Positions 9,001 to 12,000 of a stretch of DNA of 64,000 bases are shown one piece after another (positions within the stretch are counted from its first letter, which is position 1; each line of letters starts with the position of its first letter). The position numbers and the translations under genes are program-made. The DNA lies in NCBI RefSeq assembly GCF_964340395.1, contig NC_135550.1, positions 11,446,408-11,510,407 of the forward strand. Reading direction: 5' to 3'. Under the pieces are notes generated by a model that worked only from the letters and a program-made list of their open reading frames with translations, made no database searches and had not been told where the DNA came from. The stretch comes from Glandiceps talaboti. Lineage: Eukaryota > Hemichordata > Enteropneusta > Spengelidae.

Positions 9001-12000
9001 AGTGGCGGTGGTTGGGGTACTACACCCACATAGCTATGTTCTAATGAAGTGTTATTTTCTACCGCTGATATGAAGCTATGTTGTGGGGAGTTTGAAGCTG
9101 TATTTGTATTTGGAAAAGGTGGTTGGTTTGCAGGTATACTTGGTACAGATAAGGGTAACACAGAAGGTACATCTGGCTCTGTGGTCACTTGATGAGATGA
9201 TGGGTCACTCACTGGGGCCGGACTTGATGAGTTCTGTTCTTCAACATGGATTTCTGATTGTCGCTCTTTAGTATTGATCTTGTTTTGTGAATGGCAGACT
9301 GGTTGTCTTGATTCTCTTCGTTGTTTAGCTGCAGCTGCTTTTTTCCTCACTACATTCTTCACACGATATCCCATACAAAGTTTGTATGGCATGGTGGATA
9401 GCATACAAAAAATTAGGGTCTGCATTAAAAAAAATAGGGAATATTGATTATATAATTATAGTTATGAATAAATGTATTCAATAAATCACACGATTGCCAA
9501 ACTTCCTATTAAATTGTGGAATGATCACCCAGTACTCATTCGCTATATACAATGTAACAACCTAATATGAAGTGATTCAAACATAAAAAAATAAAGTGAT
9601 ATAATAATAAAAAGTATTTGTTGACTGATGACCAAAGCGAAACACTATATTTCAATAATAGTGTAAGATGGATGATTGAAACAATAATAATTGGACCATG
9701 AATTGATAAAGTTATGTGTTCTCTATCTTAGATCCATGATCCATGCATATGAATATTACAATATATTTTTAAGAATGGGGTTAGAGTCAAAAACAACATA
9801 CAGGGACAACAACAAATATTAGATATACATATCTATAAAACACTAAACTACAATACTGAATACAAAATTAATACAATAATGAATAATAACATGGCCCAGG
9901 TTTTCTATGGGTTGACTTTATATTGTTAGCTAAGCAAAGATAACTTTTCCCAGAATTGTGATTTCTAAACAATCCACAATATAATCATTCCTGTCTTTGA
10001 AATTTACATATTATTGATAATGGTTTGCAATATTTAAAAAAAATATATAATTACGCGTGTTACTCAAGGAAGGACTCGATAGTTGAACTAGAAAGGGGGG
10101 TCATCTGCCTTCCCACTGAACAGACATAAATTGTGGAAATCGTCATACATGTGTACGGCTAGTTTATGAAACGCGAAGTACTTTCCTCCTCTCCCAAGAA
10201 GGGGTTCTCATGCCATAATTGCATCGGTCGAAGATATATTATATCATGAAGCCATACAAAATCATAAAAATGGTACATGTATGATGAAAATATGTAATTT
10301 TCCGATACATAGACAATGATAGTGACCGTCCATATGCGATAAGGTGAGGAAAAAACCGGAAGTGTGATACCAAACTACAATTCAACTGGGTTTTTTAGCG
10401 CGGCTTTCGAATGAGACGTGTCTAAAGCACTGCCTGCCTCTAGAATTTGAAGAGTGGCGTACAATTTTGTGAAACACATATAGTTGATCAAACTGATATG
10501 TTCATGAATTTCGTACATTTCTATAATAACGTCCTGTATTTTTATGCAACCTTAATAGCCATTCATAACACATCGGCACATGTACTACGCCCGAGAACAT
10601 ACAGAGTTTGTACTGCTCAACTCAAAGAAGAAAAAATGGGTTACAAAGCTTAAACTTGACCACAGTTTGAAAGGTAATTTGCTTGGTAATTCCAAATCCT
10701 TTCTCATTTTCTGTTAGTTCGACCATGGATGTATTAGTCACTAATACATCCATGGTTCGACTGAGAACATGCTGAGAACGATGTCAGTTCAAATACCATA
10801 AAGAAAAGTAATTATCAACAACTAACAACCACAGATTTGAATTCCAGAACTCTAGAAATCACTTTCAAGACGTGTTTTTTGACGAAATTTATCGTTTTCT
10901 GTGATTTTTCAACTGCGACAATGGAGGAAAAAGTTGGGGAAAATGGCGACCAGGCATGTGGTGTTTACGTTTATTTTCGACACAGTTTCGATAACGTACC
11001 TCTTCATGTGCAGAGAAAACAGCCAAACATATTAAAACTTGATAAAAAGCATCAATAAATGGACTCAAAAGTTCAGGAATCATTTCTGACTGAGAGAAAT
11101 CGGGTTACAAACGTGACGAACGAAACACTGTACTCGAACAAAGCGTAAGTACAACAGTCGTAAACAATATGGGTCACCTTACGCAATCAATTCACACCAC
11201 AGTCTCACAATATACGACAAAAACGGTGTATGCACTTACCTAAAATACGACATATCTTCTTGGAGTCTTGAACCAGTTGAAAATGTCGAGATGTTGGGTA
11301 AATTTAGTGAAAACATACACAGATAACGAGCGACTATCACTGGGTGTAAACAACTCGGAAACGGACAGGAAATGCTTTTATTTAGCTTAATATGTATGCA
11401 AACACACATCGTGCAATAAACATTTAGAGATCCTTTGATGTTTACCGCAGTTGCGTATCCTGTGGGTGGAGGGTCTATGGTTTGGATTGATTTTTGATAA
11501 TTTCTATGCGCCGAATTTTTAAGAGAGAAGGAAGGAGAATATGGAATCTAAGGTCTTAGCCGGAAAGCGAAAACGTTACAAATATGTAAGAACATGTGAC
11601 AATAACATGTAATAATCCCGACAAATTTAAATGAATTCAAACTACAATTTTTTTTGTTATTTCAGTGCATACTGTGAATGTGCCAAAGCAATTTTCAACG
11701 AAGACTGGGCAGATATTGTTGACCAAACCGTGGCGTATCACGTAAGACTATCAAAAATTATCACTTACTTTACATTAGAACTCTAAGCGCTTAAATGTAT
11801 CTTTAACATTCCGTCAGATCGCCATAAACACCCTCCCCCTCAAATTTTGTGTGACGTTTTATAATAATAATTTATATAATTATTCATATGTTTTAGTCAT
11901 GGAATGTTATTGGGTTCAGTTTGCATATTTCCGACGATAAATTAGTCATGATCATTATTATGTGTGATGACATTTGGTTTATGTTATCAACAGAACGAAG

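Follow-up and report, generated by a model that had tools for sequence, protein, structure and literature searches.

Introduction

In flies, as much as 17 nt of either P-element end persists in an excision scar. In the sections of PMC7776569 considered here, the Drosophila P transposase is described as cutting 17 nt inside the element end, which leaves long tails, and the resulting break as being mended by end joining or homologous repair. The target of Drosophila P is given as GTCCGGAC (8 bp) and that of 1360 as GTTNAAC (7 bp) in the corresponding part of PMC3276498, and the extracts of PMC2775673 and PMC4168063 on which we draw list GTAGTAC, GTANTAC and GTATTAC, mostly 7 bp, as targets of Galileo. 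In this study, we have explored two short palindromes and their flanking repeats in a window of 64,000 nt (the whole stretch of DNA analysed, C2:11446408-11510407), and their relatives in the assembly of 590,416,875 bases in 47 contigs to which it belongs. We conclude that such palindromes are very probably the repaired excision scars of P-superfamily transposons, and not miniature mobile elements.

Results

The palindrome first noticed in the window is real, and consists of 17-bp perfect arms around one central base (10722-10756, the flanking A/T pair counted). The second (50171-50208) has the same left end, CCATGGATGTATTAG, as the initial annotation had stated, but its right arm differs from the left one by substitutions and a one-base indel, and only the first palindrome is perfect. 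Both stand between exact direct repeats, which had been given as 5 bases long and are actually 7 bp, because the CCATGG hexamer contributes its outer C and G to the repeat; the 5-bp TNNNA reading was dropped in favour of GTTCGAC and GTCCTAC. The first putative scar (scar 1, 31 bp, 10724-10754) comprises 15 nt of a CATGG-type end, one base and 15 nt inverted, with GTTCGAC on its left (10717-10723) and on its right (10755-10761). The second (scar 2, 38 bp, 50171-50208) can be read as 19 + 19 nt of an imperfect palindrome, with GTCCTAC at 50164-50170 and 50209-50215. Chance was assessed with 60 dinucleotide shuffles of the window, in which the longest palindrome arm was 12 bp (three cases) against 17 bp in the window, and in which no GTNNNAC repeat pair had more than 6 of its 12 inverted bases matching inside, against 12 and 9 for the window copies. 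Under looser conditions (any 7-bp repeat, with no fewer than 7 of 8 inverted bases) there were three matches in the window versus 10 across the 60 shuffles, the third in the window being A/T-rich, at 50931. When three mismatches were allowed, the 15-base end had three matches in the window versus 3.55 expected, a number not above chance, and all three were exact. The existence of the palindromes and of their flanking repeats is confirmed.

Across the genome (about 590 Mb), CCATGGAYGTATTA occurs at 725 places (389 forward, 336 reverse), and its reversed control pattern at 10 (5 forward, 5 reverse). The first 100 of the 725 places listed, all on contigs C1 and C2, were read; after the exclusion of repeats of the same context, of positions close to a locus end and of the tandem array L151, a set of 89 site-reads was kept, in which both strands of a palindrome are sometimes counted. 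Of these 89 site-reads from the 100 places listed, 48 have an insert of 23-58 bp between exact 7-bp duplicates, versus zero or one exact match at each of six control offsets, for which the 7-mer was taken 10-23 bp further upstream. This exact class is far above chance, so many of the copies read elsewhere in the genome do carry the matching direct repeats that were expected of them if transposition was involved. One-mismatch duplications were seen in 15 of the 89 versus 9-11 at the six control offsets, and since most of them may therefore be chance, the class was dropped as support; in 26 of the 89, a duplication sought within 80 bp was absent. Once the two strands of a site and evident copies of repeated units had been merged, 37 non-redundant exact scars remained. 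A structural scan returned 50 matches in 299,399 bases versus 0-2 in each of 20 shuffles, the 50 including redundant copies and many of the loci having been picked for holding a CATGG end. A dispersed repeat carries one and the same scar (duplication CACTGAC, 38 bp) at L075, L087, L103, L110, L111 and L123, so scars also spread as passengers of repeated units. At L151 (208-740), a one-sided CATGG end with a GTGTGAC flank has turned into a tandem array, mostly in 44-bp steps.

The inserts start with CATGGATGTATTAGTGAGA (19 nt), with its variants TAGGGAGA or TAGGGGAGA (20 nt) or with a shorter part of these, and continue with the inverted end. At most 19-20 nt of CATGGATGTATTAGTGAGA are retained on either side of a variable junction, as read from the scars. 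The position of the junction varies by site (38 distinct inserts, 40 combinations of duplication and insert). The 37 non-redundant inserts form 30 clusters (equal length, at most three mismatches) and have 19 different lengths between 23 and 58 bp, so that neither the shared interior nor the characteristic length of a MITE was found. The commonest length, 38 bp, accounts for six of the 37, and five are longer. A 19+19 reading fits only three of the six 38-bp inserts (the second window copy, L086 and L137), and L101 and L147, which have one-mismatch duplications, likewise read 19+19. At L108, the filler repeats the end sequence itself, as would be expected of templated end joining. The base that follows GAGA is mixed at 26 ends (T11 C9 A4 G2, with L086 and L147 contributing both strands), and some of those T and C already belong to the opposite arm. 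Against a longer, hand-typed consensus ending GAGACTC, a few arms reach 20-22, and their extra bases are read in the same way, as the opposite arm's start. The 31-bp insert of the window (GTTCGAC) recurs between GATAAAC at L084 by exact count, and between ATGAAAC at L083 by eye; similarly, one 33-bp insert has two duplications and two near-identical 33-bp inserts have others, four in the cluster. We read identical inserts with different duplications as repeated repair outcomes, and a minority of the inserts could still be moving units. The anatomy of the inserts is that of an excision footprint, not of a family copying one interior.

The duplications of the 37 non-redundant scars give a G/A-T-Y-N-R-A-C logo (GTYNRAC-like), with T at position 2 in 28/37, A at position 6 in 29/37 and G at position 1 in 16/37, the C at position 7 being fixed by the search pattern. 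The CATGG family thus shows the 7-bp duplication and the palindromic GT...AC-like target of the P superfamily. Searching for its parent, we found 13 genome matches to the P-type transposase profile PF21787 (E up to 0.001; 0 of 14 control genomes matched), and the 10-kb stretches around these 13 held no CATGG end with fewer than four mismatches in 19. A profile search with PF12017 had no match in the genome and likewise none in the control genomes, and is uninformative. For eight ends (L067, L073, L076, L077, L088, L090, L091 and L093), a stretch of up to 1.5 kb downstream was searched for a partner end: only L093 had one with at most two mismatches across the 13 outermost bases, at a distance of 41 bp, those at L077 and L090 being weaker. 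Among the 100 places listed, no inward-facing pairs 60 bp-10 kb apart were seen by eye; in the tandem array L151, one reverse copy faces forward copies. Around the 13 PF21787 matches, at the eight ends and among the 100 places listed, neither an intact CATGG element nor a cognate transposase was found, so that the superfamily of the CATGG family is inferred. A candidate 3.4-kb element at L169, with ends CAYGGATGATGA, is not relied on, equally strong matches being present at L176 and L177. Outside this genome, 64 matches to a 16-mer in GTDB genomes and the single match of one pattern in viral contigs (two other patterns had none) were treated as chance, because at all 65 loci the 60 bp after the match lack an inverted partner. 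The literature titles listed for the palindrome letters look unrelated, and no title on genome-wide palindromic P scars was found in the literature searched.

The palindrome with its duplications (10717-10761) is nested in a decayed 6.7-kb P-superfamily element of a second family, CATAG, on the minus strand (4787-11479). The inverted ends of this host element (4787-4820 and 11443-11479, the latter 37 bp) are 89% alike, and its flanks, GTTTGGG and GTTTGGA, are identical at 6 of 7 positions. Positions 8124-11482 align to L165 and L166 at about 73-75% DNA identity, with breaks against L165. A stop-to-stop frame at 8391-9455 (minus strand) encodes a protein 72-74% identical to L165/L166 (tblastn E 6e-132 and 3e-137), for which Pfam gave no family, and the next piece of the decayed coding region (8027-8440, minus strand, residues 5-106) matches L166 with tblastn E 1e-44. 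Both L165 and L166 carry PF21787 (E 1.9e-24 and 4.9e-24) and a CATAGACCC end on the same homologous stretch; that end, the one identified in them, runs ...TAGGGTCTATG, which is CATAGACCCTACACCAACAGGATACGCAACTGCGG read inward. In the window copy, the two ends are present along with the upstream portion of its coding frame, without the PF21787 domain, and it is via L165/L166 that a P-type transposase is placed in an element of the CATAG family.

The intact CATAG end is at least 35 nt long (window, 11479), yet five CATAG scars keep at most 17-18 nt. These are L176 (17+2+17, duplication ATCATAC), L081 (15+17, GGGTACT), L092 (17 on one side, CTTTATG), a copy of an own subtype at L151 (17+CG+17 or 18+18, with the near-duplication AGTGGAT/AGTAGAT seen by eye) and, in the window at 2331-2352 (plus strand), the first 17 (or 18) nt of the end followed by CTATG, the tip in inverted form, within a (TG)n tract. 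Retention stops at 17 nt in L176, L081 and L092. A third, related end type, CATAGACAG, occurs in scar-like inserts with exact 7-bp duplications at L160 (924-967, ATTAGTC) and L175 (6779-6815, TTTAGAC).

The two paralogues also offer the empty-site check that had been proposed for the first palindrome. The palindrome is absent from both, but the site is not a clean single target: the aligned place reads GTTCGGT-CATG-GTTCAAC in L165 and L166 alike, which may represent a collapsed palindrome or, alternatively, a shorter scar from the same insertion. Elsewhere, L165 has a near-perfect palindrome of 147 bp (8114-8260) that breaks up its P-type element, none being reported in L166. In the window element at 4787-11479, the transposase remains are immediately followed by pieces of a Core-2/I-branching enzyme domain in two frames (7341-8023, minus strand), one matching PF02485 with E 1.3e-16 and the other with E 0.078, which is below the cut-off, and it is possible that a host glycosyltransferase gene was captured by a P-type transposon.

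The window is animal DNA: the frame 36120-36485 matches the symplekin C-terminal family (E 5e-39). Over the whole window, Rfam gave no match at gathering scores and ARAGORN no gene. Other repeats include a 20-bp palindrome, CATAGACCCGCGGGTCTATG, at 5330-5349, with inverted and not direct flanks (ACTCAA...TTGAGT); a hairpin at 50527-50564, about 310 bp from scar 2, with 14-bp arms (longer with one mismatch) and a 10-base loop; a 59-bp segment at 50937-50995 with inverted ends TGCCAACATAT and flanks ATTTT, which could be another small element or chance; and a tandem array at 21588-22698 with 28 copies of a 39-bp unit (96% matches).

Discussion

Our results argue for palindromes that mark where transposons have left. 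The duplications, the shared ends, the variable junctions, the length ceiling and the nesting of scar 1 are all observed directly. Since the ends are retained only to a constant depth (19-20 nt, and 17-18 nt in the sister family), they are best seen as the remains of a longer, departed element. For the CATAG family, this reading has good support from few scars; for the CATGG family, good support comes from many scars, through their anatomy and target. Under the proposed model, a P-superfamily DNA transposon with ends CATGGATGTATTAGTGAGA... would insert into a GTYNRAC-like target and duplicate 7 bp. On excision, a putative CATGG-family transposase would cut one strand exactly at the element ends and the other about 19 nt further in, leaving on each chromosome end a single-stranded tail of about 19 nt from the element. 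These tails, being inverted copies of each other, would then be trimmed, filled and joined, presumably by end joining, giving a product made of the duplication, up to 19-20 nt, a junction, up to 19-20 nt inverted, and the duplication again. The initial annotation had proposed that a transposase acting on the termini mobilises the short palindrome. Its context was right, as the termini, the duplications and the dispersed family indicate, but the palindrome does not behave as the mobile unit: the 37 inserts fall into 30 clusters, mostly without a shared core.

Four other explanations have to be weighed. Scars of a transposon outside the P superfamily are an unlikely source: such an origin would be consistent with the failure to find a cognate transposase for CATGG ends around the 13 PF21787 matches and with a retained length of 19-20 nt, not 17, but the 7-bp duplication and the GTYNRAC target match 1360 and Galileo, the ends begin CATRG like those of the transposase-linked CATAG family, and the anatomy of the scars is the same in both.

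We give a rather smaller chance to a micro-MITE, that is, a palindrome of 31-38 bp which itself transposes, its transposase recognising the ends alone. Shared ends with exact duplications would be expected of it, as would the identical 31-bp inserts with different duplications (the window and L084, with L083 by eye) and the four 33-bp inserts with four duplications; against it are the 30 clusters among the 37 non-redundant inserts, the one-sided ends, the fillers, among them the L108 filler that copies the end itself, and the sister family, in which the ends run past 17-18 nt and the scars stop there.

It is very improbable that the inserts are internal-deletion derivatives, very short elements for which gap repair following excision restored the outermost bases only and which may have moved later. 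Internally deleted P-type elements are known in zebrafish according to the part of PMC10983969 used here, and ends and duplications with variable middles are likewise what this explanation predicts; gap repair, however, should leave arms of any length, where those observed stop at 17-18 nt (CATAG) and 19-20 nt (CATGG), and just five of the 37 inserts exceed 38 bp. Finally, template switching can generate palindromes, but ordinary replication palindromes formed without transposition can practically be dismissed, given the same end at 725 places and exact 7-bp duplications in 48 of 89 site-reads versus 0-1 at control offsets.

Returning to the excision-scar reading, we tentatively raise the possibility that the CATGG ends belong to a ghost P-superfamily family with a 19-nt stagger, which has lost nearly all of its intact copies in this genome and is known almost only from hundreds of palindromic scars. 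If so, its cutting chemistry and the repair preferences of the host would be readable from a catalogue of scars alone. Scars of this kind are ordinary, while their scale and legibility are striking. Short palindromes with duplications are easily taken for minimal mobile elements, and here they would record a departure and not an arrival. If the pattern holds genome-wide, scars would give the target preference and the cut depth of the transposase (about 17 versus 19 nt in the two families), and show the range of outcomes that end joining has in the germ line of an animal, all three being quantities usually obtained at the bench. It would also follow that counts of remaining copies can badly underestimate the past activity of DNA transposons.

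There are both clear likenesses and clear differences between our data and the described systems, as far as the cited portions of the sources present them. Like the CATGG family, Drosophila P duplicates a GTCCGGAC-like target, and its 17-nt stagger resembles the 17-18 nt kept by CATAG scars; it makes an 8-bp duplication instead of 7 bp, and the CATGG family keeps 19-20 nt. The Drosophila process is known from an excision assay, whereas the scars here are read from genome sequence. In the zebrafish element Pdre2 (THAP9), the excerpted accounts describe inverted ends that also start with CAT (CATACCTGTCAAC), a P-type transposase and internally deleted copies, with the differences that the ends are 13 bp, the duplication is 8 bp, reported excision products have small or larger flanking deletions and a catalogue of scars is absent from these accounts. 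The P-MITEs of Anopheles gambiae, in the part of PMC1562414 cited, are non-autonomous relatives of P of short length that share inverted ends and target duplications with our inserts, but they measure 205-2450 bp, have shared family interiors and make 8-bp duplications, while the objects described here measure 23-58 bp and have no shared interior. Similar in target are 1360 (Hoppel) and Galileo, for which the portions cited give 7-bp duplications at GTTNAAC and GTANTAC, near the GTYNRAC found here; these two are known from copies of the elements, whereas the CATGG family is known here only from scars or one-sided ends.
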